Origin: a virus
Strand: one strand, 5' to 3'
Length of the DNA stretch: 21,839 nt
Virus record (IMG/VR): IMGVR_UViG_3300002144_000285
Span: 1-21,839 of that record
Numbering within the stretch: position 1 is the first letter of the stretch; every line of letters begins with the position of its first letter. A model generated the notes under the pieces. That model saw only the letters and a program-made list of their open reading frames with translations, had not been told where the DNA came from and made no database searches. A program made the position numbers and the translations under genes. This document shows, piece after piece, positions 3,009 through 19,058 of the stretch.

Positions 3009-3038
3009 CAGCCACTGGGTTTTACTCCGTGGCTGTTT
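3009..3038 (+). terminator. Hairpin after the D5-like gene, possible weak intrinsic terminator
   Basis: CAGCCAC (3009-3015) pairs perfectly with GTGGCTG (3029-3035) around a 13-nt loop, 25 nt after the D5-like stop codon. Only three T follow (TTTAA), so termination may be partial. It would separate a highly expressed ligB/D5-like transcript from dnaB; it could equally protect the 3' end of that mRNA. Confidence 0.55.
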
Positions 3039-3092: not shown

Positions 3093-4415
3093 GTGTTAAC
3101 GCTTCAGGACTTTCAGACCTGGAGTGTTACTCATAGGCATTATCTGCCTGCTGAGTATCATGCACTTTATAATATAATTGATAAGCACTGCGAAAAGTTC
3201 CATGAAATGCCCTCATTCGATGATCTCAAACTTGAGATTCGGGATAGTGCTACTAAAGAAAAGTTGTATGCAATTCAAAGCGTTGAAGTTGACGCTGATG
3301 CATACATGCTTCTTCAGTACCTAAAGAACGAATATGCTCAGAAAGAGATACTCAACTCGCTCGAAGATTATATTGACAACAGTGTATCTTTTGAAGACGC
3401 ACAAGAGTCAGTAGATCACCTACACCAGATTGTCCTAGACATTGAAAGTAAGGTTGATTTAGAAGATCCGCAAGAAAGTATGCAACGTATTGACTTGTTC
3501 GAGCCAGAAGAGGAACTAGAGAAGTATGTCCCTCTCGGTCTAAACGCTGAGTATGACTTATCAACACAATTCTCTCCCAGGGACTTGGTAATGGTAGGTG
3601 GTAAACGGGGCGCAGGTAAGTCTGTAATCTGTGCTAATATTGCACAGAATGTATTTGCTAGTGGTAAGTCTGCTATTTATTTCACTATTGAGATGGATAG
3701 CAGAAATATCCTGCAGAGATGCTGTTCTATTGCGACTGGTGTTCCATTCAATAGATTAAGAACCAAAAATCTTAGTCTGACTGAGTGGGAGAAAGTCGCA
3801 GGTTGGTGGGCATCTAGGTTTAAAGGTGGGCAAGACCGTTTGAAAGAGTATAAAGTCGACCGAGACTTTGCTAAGTTTCATCATAATCTAACTAACAACT
3901 GTGAGCTTCTCCCAACTCAACAGTTAGACGTAGTTTATGACCCGTCACTTACACTGTCCAAGATTAGGGCCGAGCTTGATAAAAAAGTGCGACCCCTGAA
4001 TGTTGGTATTATCGTAGTTGACTATATAAACCAAGTAAAACGCTCTAACCTACCTTCTAGAACAGGTGGCCAGTACGACTGGACAGAGCAGATAGAAGTG
4101 TCTAAGGCTTTAAAGTCTATGGCACAAGAGTATGACGTTACCGTCTTCTCACCGTATCAGACAGATGCTAGTGGAGAAGCTCGTTTCGCAAAGGGTATTT
4201 TGGATGCAGCAGACGCGGCATTCACGTTGGAGACCTGGGATCACGAGGATAATTGTATTACCCTCAACTGTGTGAAAATGCGAAATGGTGCTATGACTTC
4301 ATTTACATCAGTAGTAGATTGGGAAAGCCTGAAAATTGGCCCCGAGTCGGCTCTTACTCCGCAAGAGAGAGACGCCTCGGCTTCTAAAACTGGTGAAAGT
4401 ATCAATGATATTTAA
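3093..4415 (+). CDS. dnaB: Replicative DNA helicase, DnaB family
   Basis: 440 residues from the first standard start. The N-terminal region (about 1-160) is helical and lacks clear motifs. The RecA-type core has Walker A GGKRGAGKS (169-177), the family-typical IYFTIEMDSRNILQRC with Glu200, Walker B IIVVDY (306-311), then a DWTEQIEVSKALKSMAQEYD helix and a C-terminal KMRNG loop. It should form the hexameric ring that unwinds the fork and works with the primase encoded next. No RBS precedes GTG 3093. Upstream in-frame codons (GTT AAT ATT GCA AGT GCA TTA ATA AAT AAA) encode a plausible VNIASALINK extension, and the best RBS (GGGAG, 3051) sits before it, so the true N-terminus is probably about 8-10 residues longer with a non-standard start. 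The gene ends just before a terminator that contains the next promoter. Confidence 0.9.
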   Translation: MLTLQDFQTWSVTHRHYLPAEYHALYNIIDKHCEKFHEMPSFDDLKLEIRDSATKEKLYAIQSVEVDADAYMLLQYLKNEYAQKEILNSLEDYIDNSVSFEDAQESVDHLHQIVLDIESKVDLEDPQESMQRIDLFEPEEELEKYVPLGLNAEYDLSTQFSPRDLVMVGGKRGAGKSVICANIAQNVFASGKSAIYFTIEMDSRNILQRCCSIATGVPFNRLRTKNLSLTEWEKVAGWWASRFKGGQDRLKEYKVDRDFAKFHHNLTNNCELLPTQQLDVVYDPSLTLSKIRAELDKKVRPLNVGIIVVDYINQVKRSNLPSRTGGQYDWTEQIEVSKALKSMAQEYDVTVFSPYQTDASGEARFAKGILDAADAAFTLETWDHEDNCITLNCVKMRNGAMTSFTSVVDWESLKIGPESALTPQERDASASKTGESINDI

Positions 4416-4424
4416 AAAAAGTTC

Positions 4425-4453
4425 TTGACTTTCCTCCTCCACTCTAGTATAAT
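4425..4453 (+). promoter_or_regulatory. Sigma-70-type promoter P3 for primase, embedded in a terminator
   Basis: TTGACT (4425-4430) and TATAAT (4448-4453) have a 17-nt spacer. The -10 box occupies the start of the loop of the terminator hairpin at 4433-4475, and the spacer is the left arm. A start near 4460 would give RNA containing only the right arm, so it cannot form the hairpin. The transcript should reach primase, polymerase, purM and beyond. Confidence 0.85.
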
Positions 4454-4482
4454 ATTGTTTCTAGAGTGAAGGAGGTTTTTTT
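4433..4482 (+). terminator. Intrinsic terminator after dnaB, with promoter P3 inside its hairpin
   Basis: The left arm CCTCCTCCACTCTAG (4433-4447) and right arm CTAGAGTGAAGGAGG (4461-4475) form 14 pairs with one C-A mismatch around a 13-nt loop. Seven T follow at 4476-4482. It lies 17 nt after the dnaB stop, exactly where an operon end is expected. As DNA, the inner 7 bp (ACTCTAG/CTAGAGT) is a perfect palindrome flanking the -10 box, so an operator role is an alternative. Confidence 0.85.
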
Positions 4483-4496
4483 GGCTCCGTAAACGC

Positions 4497-4504
4497 AAAG
4501 AGGA
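4497..4504 (+). promoter_or_regulatory. RBS AAAGAGGA deciding the primase start
   Basis: AAAGAGGA ends directly against a TTG codon (4505), leaving no spacing for it, but lies 9 nt before GTG 4514. It therefore favours GTG 4514 as the primase start. Confidence 0.6.
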
Positions 4505-4513
4505 TTGTACATA

Positions 4514-5341
4514 GTGAACGTGGAAGAACTGCTAAAATCAAGGGATGTATATTTTATACCTAAAGGTGGAGACTTCTTAGTTTCCTGTCTTAACCCTGAA
4601 CATGCAGACAGAAATCCTAGTATGAGGATTGACCAAATCACTGGCATATTTCAATGCTTTTCTTGTGAATTCAAAGGTAATTTGTTTACCTATTTTGGGG
4701 AAAAGGCAAATCAACTACAACTACGACGAGAACTTCTTAAAAAGAAACTTAAAGATAAGAGGTCGGAAAGTATTGGTTTGTCTTTTCCCAAAAATAGCAT
4801 AGCATATACTGGAACATGGAGAGAGATTAAGCCTGAGACATACAAAAGGTTTGAAGCCTTTCAACACTCAGACGGAGACTTTATAGGTAGGATTAACTTT
4901 CCTATTAGGGATATTTCAGGCAGAATAGTAGCCTTCAATGGCAGACATACTACAAACGGTACGCCTAAGTATATGATCTCGCCTGCGGGTGCAAGGATGC
5001 CTTTATTCCCTATAGTTAAGCCGATACAAGGTTGTGTTATCTTAGTAGAAGGTATATACGACATGATAAACCTACATGATAAAGGATTAACTAATGCAGT
5101 TTGTACGTTTGGCACAAAGAACATCAATGAAGATAAGCTACGAATGCTTTCTATACAGGGAGTAGACACTGTAGATATATTCTTTGATGGAGATGATGCA
5201 GGACAAACAGCAGCAGAAAGAGTTAAGATAATGTGTGAAGAGGCAGAATTATTAACTAGAAATGTATGTTTAAAAGGCACAGACCCAGGAGCTTTAAAAG
5301 AAGCACAAGTAAGAAAACTAAAAGATAAATTATATAACTAG
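4514..5341 (+). CDS. DnaG-type DNA primase (CHC2 zinc finger and TOPRIM)
   Basis: 275 residues from GTG 4514. The zinc-binding domain is at the front: C-x2-PEH-x(8)-SMRID, then a FQCFSC pair, following the CHC2 pattern (C, H, C, C), used for template recognition. The basic linker is KKKLKDKRSE. The RNA-polymerase core has GRINFPIRDISGRIVAFNGR and the PKYMISPAG segment. The TOPRIM domain has VILVEGIYDM (catalytic Glu) and FFDGDDAGQTAAER (the D-x-D metal site), with LKGTDPGAL near the end. At about 275 residues it is roughly half of bacterial DnaG and has no helicase-interaction domain, as is common in phages. It makes RNA primers for the polymerase encoded next. TTG 4505 is a possible alternative start but would abut the RBS. 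Its own promoter P3 drives it, with a 9-nt gap to the polymerase gene. Confidence 0.9.
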   Translation: MNVEELLKSRDVYFIPKGGDFLVSCLNPEHADRNPSMRIDQITGIFQCFSCEFKGNLFTYFGEKANQLQLRRELLKKKLKDKRSESIGLSFPKNSIAYTGTWREIKPETYKRFEAFQHSDGDFIGRINFPIRDISGRIVAFNGRHTTNGTPKYMISPAGARMPLFPIVKPIQGCVILVEGIYDMINLHDKGLTNAVCTFGTKNINEDKLRMLSIQGVDTVDIFFDGDDAGQTAAERVKIMCEEAELLTRNVCLKGTDPGALKEAQVRKLKDKLYN

Positions 5342-5350
5342 AGGTTATAC

Positions 5351-7621
5351 ATGACGAGCCCACGAGTCGCTCTAATAGAGACTAAGAGAAGTAAAACAAA
5401 CTACAAATCTGAATTTGATCATGAGTTCGAATTTGACCAATATCAGCTATGTTCTAATCCTACCATTACGAAAGTACTGAAACGAGATTGTGACATAGAA
5501 ATTAACATTGATGCCTATGACTGGATTATTCTAGTAGGTAGTGATGCTTTGAAATACTTTACCAAAATTAACTCAGTTACTGAATATTCTGGTAAGAAGG
5601 TAGATGAAAAATTTCTTCCTGTAATTAACCCCGCAATGTTAGCTTTTAAGCCAGAGGCTAGAGGTACATGGGAAACTTCACGCGATAATATCATTAAGCA
5701 TATTAAAGGTGAGATTGAAGATGTAACTATTACTAGTGAAAATGCGTATGGCATTGAAAATACTGAAGAAGCTAATGCCTATATTCAAGCAGCAATTGAT
5801 TCTCCTACAGAATATGTTGCTCTTGACTCCGAAACAACGGGTCTGTACCCACGAGATGGATACATGCTTGGAATATCTTTGTCTTACCAAAGAGACAAAG
5901 GTGTTTATATTAATACAGAGTGTTTTGATGAAAAAACTGAAGAGCTTCTTCAGCAGCTATTTGATAAGAAGATAGTAGTATTTCATAACGCTAAGTTTGA
6001 CGTTGCTTTCTTTCAGTACCACTTTAACTTTAACTTTCCTCAGTTTGAGGACACAATGTTGCTCCATTACCTCATAGACGAGAATCCTGGAGGGCATGGC
6101 CTTAAGCAGCTATCTATTAAGTACACTCCATACGGGGACTATGAAAAGCCCATGTATGAGTGGATGGATAACTATAGAAGGGAGCATGGCATACTAAAAG
6201 ACCAATTTACTTGGGATAGTATTCCTTTTGAGACTATGAAGACATATGCTGCGATGGACGCAGTATGTACCTTCCTGCTCTACGAAAAGTTTGTAAAGAT
6301 TAAGCAGAACAAAAGACTGAAGAACGTCTACGATAATATATTGATACCTGGGTCTAAGTTTTTAACTGATGTTCAGGATAATGGAGTACCTTTTGACAGG
6401 GATAGACTTATTGTCTCGCAGGAGTTAATGCAAAAAGAAATTGATGAGGCAATTGCTCAGTTGTATAAACATCCTGCTATATCAAAATTTGAGACAATTA
6501 ATGGAAAAACTTTTAACCCTAATAGCACTGTCCAGCTTAGATCTCTTTTGTTTGACTTTCTTGGTCTACAGCCTACGGGAAAGAAAACTGGTACAGGAGC
6601 AGCTTCGACAGATGCGGAAGTTCTTGGAGAGCTGGCCGAACAGTCAGAAGTACCAAAACTTATCCTTGCCATACGACAAAAGTCGAAAATCAAGAATACT
6701 TACTTGGATAAAATCATACCGCAACTGGACAGAGATTCTAGGCTTCGTACAGGGTTTAACTTACATAGTACTACTTCTGGTCGCCTTAGCTCTAGTGGTA
6801 AGCTCAATATGCAGCAACTACCTAGAGATAACCCTATAGTAAAGGGGTGTATTAAAGCTGCCCCAGGACATAAGATTGTAGCAATGGACTTAACAACAGC
6901 AGAAGTATATGTTGCAGCCATTCTAGCAGAAGATAAAGCACTCATTGAAGTGTTCCGTAGTGGAGGTAACTTTCATAGTAGTATTGCGAAGAGAGTATTT
7001 GGTCTACCATGTGATGTAGAAGATGTTGCAGAGTTGTACAAAGATAAAAGACAGGCTGCTAAAGCAGTAACATTTGGTATTATGTATGGAGCTGGCCCTA
7101 AGAAGATTAGTGAGCAAGTAACAAAGGATTCGGGCAAGTACTTTAGCCCGCAAGAGGCCACAGAAGTAATTACTGAGTACTTTAATGAGTTCCACAAGCT
7201 AAAAGAATGGATAACTAATAATCAGACTTTTATTGCGGCAAATGGATTTATTTATAGTTACTTTGGCCGTAAAAGGAGATTACCCAATGTCGGATCTACT
7301 GACGCAGGTATTAAAAGTCATAGTATTAGGTCTGGTCTTAACTTTTTGGTGCAGTCTGCTGCTTCTGATATTAACTTATTAGGCGCTATAGATATGGGAG
7401 CACACATTAAGGCGAAGAAAATGAAAGCTCGAATATTTGCTTTAGTACATGACTCTATTCTAGCAGAAGTGCCAGATGATGAAGTAGATTCATATGTAGA
7501 ACAGTTACAGAAGTATATACAAATGGATAGAGGATTGTCTATCCCAGGTGCCCCAGTTGGTTGTGATTTTGAGATTGGGGATGATTATTCAATGGGTAAA
7601 TTCGAGAAGATATATGGTTGA
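5351..7621 (+). CDS. polA: Family A DNA polymerase with 3'-5' exonuclease
   Basis: 756 residues. Exonuclease motifs: Exo I LDSETTG (Asp159, Glu161), Exo II NAKFD (213-217), Exo III YAAMD (299-303), so proofreading looks intact. Polymerase motifs: motif A MDLTTAEVYVAA (Asp513, steric-gate Glu518), motif B RQAAKAVTFGIMYG (Arg567, Lys571, Phe575, Tyr579), motif C LVHDSILAEV (His700, Asp701, with Ser702 where bacterial Pol I has Glu). TTSGRLSSSGKLNMQQLPR at 474-492 is the family DNA-binding strand. There is no 5' nuclease domain; that activity is encoded separately at 15,227. Residues about 55-120 (ILVGSDALKYF, then NPAMLAFKPEARGTW) look like a degenerate family 4-type uracil-DNA glycosylase C-terminal half, of unknown role here. 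It starts at ATG 5351 with AGAGG upstream and overlaps purM by 8 nt. It is the likely replicative polymerase. Confidence 0.95.
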   Translation: MTSPRVALIETKRSKTNYKSEFDHEFEFDQYQLCSNPTITKVLKRDCDIEINIDAYDWIILVGSDALKYFTKINSVTEYSGKKVDEKFLPVINPAMLAFKPEARGTWETSRDNIIKHIKGEIEDVTITSENAYGIENTEEANAYIQAAIDSPTEYVALDSETTGLYPRDGYMLGISLSYQRDKGVYINTECFDEKTEELLQQLFDKKIVVFHNAKFDVAFFQYHFNFNFPQFEDTMLLHYLIDENPGGHGLKQLSIKYTPYGDYEKPMYEWMDNYRREHGILKDQFTWDSIPFETMKTYAAMDAVCTFLLYEKFVKIKQNKRLKNVYDNILIPGSKFLTDVQDNGVPFDRDRLIVSQELMQKEIDEAIAQLYKHPAISKFETINGKTFNPNSTVQLRSLLFDFLGLQPTGKKTGTGAASTDAEVLGELAEQSEVPKLILAIRQKSKIKNTYLDKIIPQLDRDSRLRTGFNLHSTTSGRLSSSGKLNMQQLPRDNPIVKGCIKAAPGHKIVAMDLTTAEVYVAAILAEDKALIEVFRSGGNFHSSIAKRVFGLPCDVEDVAELYKDKRQAAKAVTFGIMYGAGPKKISEQVTKDSGKYFSPQEATEVITEYFNEFHKLKEWITNNQTFIAANGFIYSYFGRKRRLPNVGSTDAGIKSHSIRSGLNFLVQSAASDINLLGAIDMGAHIKAKKMKARIFALVHDSILAEVPDDEVDSYVEQLQKYIQMDRGLSIPGAPVGCDFEIGDDYSMGKFEKIYG

Positions 7622-8447
7622 CCAAGCAAAGGCCAATGAATTAGCGGAATACCTAGGATTATCTGGGTATGGTGCAGTAATTAATGTAGGCTCTTATAGA
7701 GACATAGTATTGTCTACAGATGGAGTAGGTACTAAGCTATTAATTGCTGAGTACTTTAATAAGTTTGATACTGTAGGTATTGACTTAGTAGCAATGTGCG
7801 CTAATGATATATTATGTGTTGGTGCTCGCCCTCACAGCTTTTTAGACTATTATGCTACAGGTTCTCTGAACATGGATAAAAGTAAAGAGATTCTAGGGGG
7901 TATTATAAAAGGCTGTGAGTTAGCGGGCTGTAAGTTAGTAGGTGGAGAAACTGCTCAGTTAAACCCAATGTTCTTTAAGAAGGCTTGGTTTGATTTAGCT
8001 GGTTTCATCATGGGAGTAGTAGTACAAAGACTTCCTTCACCTTTCATAGCTGTAGGAGACTATGTTGTAGGTATTCCTAGTAGTGGAGTTCATAGTAATG
8101 GTTTTACCACTATTAGGATGAATGTAAAGGAATGGACAGAAGACTTGCTCACTCCCACCAGAATATATACCAATGAGATTATGAATAATCTGACTCATAT
8201 TAAAGCATGTGCTCACATAACAGGCGGAGGTATTCATGGGAACTTGCCACGGGTGCTCAACGGCTTTAACTATAGTATCGACCTTACACTTGACCCTTAT
8301 TGGAAGAACCTTAAGAAATTAGTAGGAATGAGCACAGCGCAGATGGAGAATACGTTTAATTGTGGCTGGGGGATGTTATTAGTAGTAAGTGACCCAGATA
8401 TGTTAGATATACCAGATGCTAAAGTACTTGGACGAATAGTACCATAA
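7614..8447 (+). CDS. purM: Phosphoribosylformylglycinamidine cyclo-ligase (AIR synthetase), shortened
   Basis: 277 residues; bacterial PurM is about 345. It catalyses ATP-dependent closure of FGAM to AIR, step five of purine synthesis. Clear signatures: STDGVGTKL (about 32-40), VGIDLVAMCANDI, FLDYYATG, LVGGETAQ, SSGVHSNG, LLTPTRIY, HITGGGIHGNLPRVL and TFNCGWGML. The start ATG 7614 overlaps the polymerase stop (ATGgtTGA); the frame extends upstream only inside the polymerase gene, so the short N-terminus is real. Missing relative to bacterial PurM is the first segment of about 30 residues with the YK-x-AGVDI signature, and two central/C-terminal loops are shortened. The end (AKVLGRIVP) corresponds to the normal final strand. 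It is an auxiliary metabolic gene probably supplying purines for phage DNA. It sits directly behind the polymerase, so it is expressed with it. Confidence 0.92.
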   Translation: MVDQAKANELAEYLGLSGYGAVINVGSYRDIVLSTDGVGTKLLIAEYFNKFDTVGIDLVAMCANDILCVGARPHSFLDYYATGSLNMDKSKEILGGIIKGCELAGCKLVGGETAQLNPMFFKKAWFDLAGFIMGVVVQRLPSPFIAVGDYVVGIPSSGVHSNGFTTIRMNVKEWTEDLLTPTRIYTNEIMNNLTHIKACAHITGGGIHGNLPRVLNGFNYSIDLTLDPYWKNLKKLVGMSTAQMENTFNCGWGMLLVVSDPDMLDIPDAKVLGRIVP

Positions 8448-19031: not shown

Positions 19032-19058
19032 AAAAAGGGGCTTTGCAGCCCCTTTTTT
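19032..19058. terminator. Strong bidirectional intrinsic terminator between convergent blocks
   Basis: GGGGCT (19037-19042) and AGCCCC (19047-19052) form a perfect stem with loop TTGC. It is preceded by five A and followed by six T, so it works in both directions. It ends the forward replication/nrd transcript and the reverse tail transcript, whose last gene stops at 19066. Confidence 0.95.

Follow-up and report, generated by a model that had tools for sequence, protein, structure and literature searches.

We found that a 58-bp element in T5-like phage DNA, which occupies the gap between dnaB and primase in the analysed stretch of 21,839 nucleotides (the window), probably acts as a stop-and-restart junction for transcription and, in relatives that carry a small gene at this place (ORF X), also as a mask of that gene's Shine-Dalgarno (SD) sequence. 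RNA polymerase arriving from dnaB would copy both arms of a hairpin, the hairpin would form, and transcription would terminate in the U-tract at about 4480-4482, while RNA started at the nested sigma70-type promoter would begin in the hairpin loop, contain the right arm alone and, because no hairpin forms without the left arm, go on to transcribe primase and DNA polymerase. Where close relatives carry ORF X, the hairpin would also hide the ORF X SD in read-through RNA, leaving RNA from the gene's own promoter as the sole template for its translation; the window has no ORF X, and there the terminator-promoter would remain. The initial annotation had described a promoter nested in a terminator, with opposite fates for the two RNAs, and this is still the best reading of the anatomy, supported by covariation, by a terminator score that exceeds the threshold and by a hairpin and T7 tract that are present despite the absent ORF X; what it missed was the SD in the right arm, with the T run as its spacer. 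Both effects, termination and SD masking, likely act in the family, with termination as the likelier remaining role in the window because the masked gene is absent there. The two fates may further separate dnaB dosage from primase/polymerase dosage.

All coordinates previously assigned to the element were correct when checked on the sequence, and are given in the table together with those of the neighbouring genes. The promoter matched 11 of 12 consensus positions, its -10 box was invariant in all eight rows of alignment A1, and the position of this box predicts a transcription start at about 4459-4463. The pattern TTGAC-N18-TATAAT occurred four times in the window, compared with a mean of 0.04 in 100 shuffles, with all copies on the plus strand (449, 1444 and 4425, intergenic; 10904, just past the helicase gene). 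The hairpin arms pair at 14 of 15 positions, the sole exception being C4439/A4469, and the perfect palindrome beside the loop, formerly described as 7 bp, proved to be 8 bp (CACTCTAG/CTAGAGTG). After the T run the window continues with GGCTCCGTAA, and the three-codon frame there is possibly not translated.

Features of the dnaB-primase junction in the window
Feature	Position	Strand	Evidence
dnaB-like replicative helicase; origin of arriving RNA	3093-4415	+	ORF list, protein matches
-35 box TTGACT	4425-4430	+	sequence, promoter scan, pattern count
Promoter spacer, 17 nt	4431-4447	+	sequence
Left hairpin arm, within promoter spacer; outer end is the anti-SD CCTCCT	4433-4447	+	sequence, repeat list, fold, covariation
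-10 box TATAAT, the first six loop bases	4448-4453	+	sequence, promoter scan, pattern count
13-nt hairpin loop; predicted transcription start near loop end	4448-4460	+	sequence
Right hairpin arm; AAGGAGG at 4469-4475 matches ORF X SD of relatives	4461-4475	+	sequence, repeat list, L015
T7 tract, putative terminator U-tract; in relatives, spacer between the ORF X SD and its start codon	4476-4482	+	sequence, terminator score
Three-codon frame TTG-GCT-CCG-TAA at place expected for ORF X start	4481-4492	+	sequence
DnaG-like primase starting with GTG (4514); first complete gene 3' of promoter	4514-5341	+	ORF list, protein matches
Family A DNA polymerase, next gene after primase	5351-7621	+	ORF list, protein matches

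The repeat of the element ranked second in a list of 12 close inverted repeats in the first 12 kb, and the RNA fold of 4416-4500 reached -23.8 kcal/mol (z = -3.74), a stability equalled by 0 of 200 shuffles; this predicted fold places three extra inner pairs and a 4-nt loop within the 13-nt loop. Using a d'Aubenton-type terminator score with ViennaRNA energies (hairpins of at most 50 nt, T-score of at least 3.2), we obtained two plus-strand sites above 0 in the window, this hairpin (18.5) and 19037-19052, and the hairpins of relatives lay above the terminator threshold in 8 of 14 cases and below it in 6. Like an intrinsic (Rho-independent) terminator, the element has a stable stem with a G+C-rich lower part and seven T directly after it; unlike one, it has a 13-nt loop that holds the -10 box of a promoter. 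Loops of intrinsic terminators are usually short, about 3-10 nt, and the length of this loop is a point against termination. A program scan for terminators in the window did not list the hairpin at 4433-4482 because it admitted loops of 3-8 nt only.

To place the element in its family, relatives were collected at up to 80 loci per query, and since one contig may yield several loci, distinct sequences are counted where stated. Among the matches listed, dnaB and primase occurred together in at least 149 loci (71 distinct junctions), with a TATAAT promoter directly after dnaB in 63 of the 71 distinct junctions and ORF X, a gene of about 95 codons (phrog_4593), between the two genes in 123 of the 149 loci and 58 of the 71 distinct junctions. 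In L015, the hairpin reads CCTCCTCTATTTTAG - loop - CTAAAGTAGAGGAGG, then TTTTTTTATGGCA, with TTTTTTTATG of ORF X behind the right arm, such that this arm holds the SD of the gene and the T run serves as spacer; the same layout was found in L003, L035, L116, L173, L203, L222 and others. Comparison of five ORF X proteins with Pfam and PHROGs yielded no function, the sole match being phrog_4593, which is of unknown function. The ORF X protein (L015:2065-2349 and relatives) has a basic first half and a conserved end with AYNKGAYQVI; matches to this end were also seen in the Pelagibacter phages HTVC008M and Mosig.

At E 0.01, no ORF X match was detected in the window or in the contigs of L001 (36 kb) and L013 (15.7 kb), all of them fragments. 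Distinct promoter junctions lacking ORF X numbered 11 among the matches listed, with a strong stem in two types (the window and L013/L014) and none in the other nine, the ancestors of which may never have had a stem. In the dnaB tree, the window (row L082) grouped as sister with the ORF X carrier L003, and L014, which lacks ORF X, sat on another twig, the fork joining them being open; as the simplest reading we infer that ORF X was lost twice, rather than that these lineages never had it. Both types keep a TTG-GC start after the T run, opening a frame before primase of three codons in the window and six in the L013 type (L239 4433-4453), either a relic or a leader peptide.

These data bear on a purely translational explanation, according to which read-through RNA has its ORF X SD hidden by the hairpin, the T run is a mere spacer and the window carries a decaying relic. 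All 14 strong ORF X stems have the SD in their right arm (partly so in L238), the nine junctions with neither ORF X nor a strong stem fit this explanation, and the T4 precedent is well documented. Opening the SD was costlier in RNA arriving by read-through than in RNA started at the promoter, by a median of +2.3 kcal/mol across 96 ORF X promoters, and the excess reached +4.8 to +16.8 kcal/mol in 13 of the 14 strong stems, L203 having been dropped for its short upstream sequence. In L038, L043 and L137, strong stems that are followed by no T run also cover the SD, and could at most mask it. Against this explanation, the window and the L013 type still carry hairpin and T7 tract without ORF X, L013 has an eroded SD (AGAAGGG) but retains, by a shift, a stem of 16 positions in which 15 pair, and the score of the window exceeds the terminator threshold. 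We therefore consider translational control alone rather unlikely, and favour a junction at which termination and restart are combined with SD masking where ORF X is present.

The distribution of strong stems restricts how widely such a junction would operate. The initial annotation held that related phages keeping the promoter without the pairing arms would speak against the nested arrangement, and a strong stem was indeed absent in 80 of the 98 distinct related promoter rows among the matches listed; insulation would therefore be optional and lineage-specific. A T-rich stretch was present in 13 of 18 strong-stem junction rows (five rows having no T run) versus 6 of 80 without a strong stem, and when counted by ORF X promoter, a T run accompanied 11 of 14 strong stems versus 6 of 83 others. 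Once freed of relatedness, this link was not significant, with two to three independent pairs in agreement (median P = 0.25), and under a stricter definition of the T run one independent pair sometimes disagreed (median P = 0.5). The junction-row counts were taken from a separate tally instead of the labels on the dnaB tree, where L137 and L054 are marked 'HP+T' spuriously (tail TATGATTGT) and 'HP' for L116 hides a T5. Strong stems of 13-19 positions appeared on separate branches of the dnaB tree and needed at least nine changes on it, and have therefore been gained or lost repeatedly.

Covariation of the arms in related phages, which had been put forward as a check of the hairpin, was found in six same-register sequences. 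Across these six related sequences, on which the covariation result rests, 94.4% of cells were paired compared with 50-60% in slid controls, double changes were seen in three pairs (reached by 9 of 500 shuffles), and the covariation score was reached by 0 of 500 shuffles; further pair types numbered six, below every shuffle (mean 7.4). Between the window and L003 (row L160 of alignment A2, the same contig), 7 of 15 pairs differed: two by compensatory double changes, three by one-sided changes that still pair, and two being broken in one of the sequences. Judged from these sequence comparisons, the pairing of the arms is selected.

We further asked in which molecule the pairing acts, since the initial annotation had also suggested that the dyad around the -10 box might be a repressor operator or a promoter-masking cruciform. 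The position of the -10 box between dyad arms that are perfect over the 8 bp beside the loop would suit such a DNA-level device, and two features of the window speak against plus-strand RNA, namely that its own mismatch is C/A and that its minus-strand RNA, because of this mismatch, folds better (-28.9) than the plus-strand RNA. Against a DNA-level device, the sequence of the dyad varies while pairing is kept, and 80 of 98 related promoters have no strong stem. Departures from pairing were mostly G-U in the plus-strand RNA, with 26 G-U versus 1 A-C in the 14 strong ORF X stems, 27 versus 3 when the window and L013 types were added, and 114 versus 66 in 78 weak stems, under a scoring that treats both alike; because related sequences are counted apart, these counts are indicative. 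This excess of G-U is an indication in favour of plus-strand RNA over a DNA dyad, the window's own departure being A-C, and a DNA-level device thus has less support and seems very improbable.

We then assessed whether spacers pair with their own downstream regions across ORF X promoters. Among the matches listed, 335 loci yielded 298 with ORF X, 295 with a start and 278 with a promoter, corresponding to 100 distinct sequences, of which 97 were used after removal of L230, L215 and L335 (weak boxes or a gap above 43 nt); the SD-opening set comprised 96 of them. In 43 clusters, which still contain related ones, the spacers paired at -7.05 kcal/mol with their own downstream region compared with -5.29 kcal/mol when permuted, beyond all 10,000 permutations (SD 0.31, lowest -6.76), a signal stemming from a subset, with weak or no pairing in many clusters. 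The notion that a pyrimidine-rich spacer pairs by chance with a purine-rich SD, to no function, accommodates these weak clusters and the compositional pairing of T-rich spacers with SDs (null mean -5.3 kcal/mol), but is largely refuted by the compensatory changes in the arms and further opposed by the permutation result and the 13-19-position stems in separate branches, and can hardly be upheld. A general rule of spacer-SD pairing for the promoters of these phages is not claimed, as pairing at their other promoters was barely above permutation (-5.64 versus -4.97 in 29 clusters, 0.026 of permutations). Spacers that pair with a downstream SD region were also seen before other genes (L217:1427, L241:1026 and, at the ligase gene, L101:364).

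The stop-and-restart junction was compared with known systems. In the fold-back inhibition of IS10 transposase, transcripts that enter from outside fold back over the start site, unlike those of the inner promoter; IS10 is a transposon guarding itself against outside promoters, and the window has a phage-operon junction instead. According to passages in PMC3014915 and PMC2988022, T4 gene e (lysozyme) and I-TevI have a hairpin that hides the ribosome-binding site (RBS) and a local promoter whose RNA is without the 5' strand of this hairpin, the gene e promoter of T4-type phages is said to sit in the region encoding this 5' strand, and soc and 49 are named as having inhibitory structures. The likeness, as far as these passages describe it, is that long RNA from upstream hides the RBS and locally started RNA is free; correspondingly, the -10 box of the window follows the left arm, and the RNA expected from a start at about 4460 would be without the 5' strand. 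The window differs in that its arm contains an SD with ORF X absent and a three-codon frame only, and is therefore not assigned to the gene e type, although L015 and L003 would work like one. It differs further in its sigma70-type TTGAC-N18-TATAAT promoter, in place of the late promoter (TATAAATA) that goes with delayed expression in gene e, and in the U-tract after the stem, with likely termination, in a T5-like replication block.

Phrase searches of the open-access literature found no paper on a promoter inside a terminator, an absence that proves little given this coverage, and likewise, within open-access literature only, none on read-through RNA with a masked RBS and an internal promoter, and no T5 transcript map was recognised among the papers listed; the phrase for IS10 fold-back inhibition likewise occurred in none of the papers listed for it. 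The gene e principle is known; its combination here with a sigma70-type promoter, a U-tract, a T5-like replication block and a device without masked gene appears new. If the proposed junction is correct, one short sequence halts incoming transcripts and restarts transcription, a compact insulator that brings its own promoter, and in relatives restricts translation to the restarted RNA. The covarying natural variants provide a ready test set for a terminator, a promoter and a ribosome-binding site that share bases.

These variants also suit the question of whether a terminated polymerase restarts on the spot. Passages in PMC6978380 and PMC6978322 describe that RNA polymerase can stay on the DNA after intrinsic termination and restart nearby, where one DNA carries a terminator and, within its reach, a promoter; in these accounts the two are separate, and in the window they would overlap. 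By analogy, the nested layout would suit such post-termination recycling. A polymerase terminated at the T run, and so at the promoter or only a few bases away from it, might restart without leaving the DNA, making the element a hand-over device that these T5-like phages would have gained several times at one place; we regard this as a speculative and improbable extension, which, if true, would turn dnaB transcription into fresh, hairpin-free RNA for primase and polymerase.

The window encodes a two-part NAD ligase, a D5-like regulator, a DnaB-like helicase, a DnaG-like primase, a family A polymerase, a 5'-3' exonuclease and a ribonucleotide reductase. The top-ranked named phages by dnaB and primase were Vibrio phages (identity 32% and 45%). 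The cultured T5-like Vibrio phages Gary and VPG01 belong to Demerecviridae and were set aside as a comparison for the element, as their dnaB and primase overlap and hence leave no such junction. In an Rfam search of 4300-4700, the lone match up to E 1 was a microRNA family on the minus strand, which was taken as chance (E 0.34; 17.9 bits versus a gathering score of 171). Between the D5-like gene and dnaB, a hairpin at 3009-3035 (CAGCCACTGGGT/ACTCCGTGGCTG) has three T only behind its stem and a terminator score below 0. A symmetric hairpin at 19032-19057 (AAAAAGGGGCT/AGCCCCTTTTT), listed on both strands, separates the plus-strand block from minus-strand ORFs and is likely a two-way terminator. 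The replication block also contains an AIR synthetase (purM)-like gene at 7548-8447.
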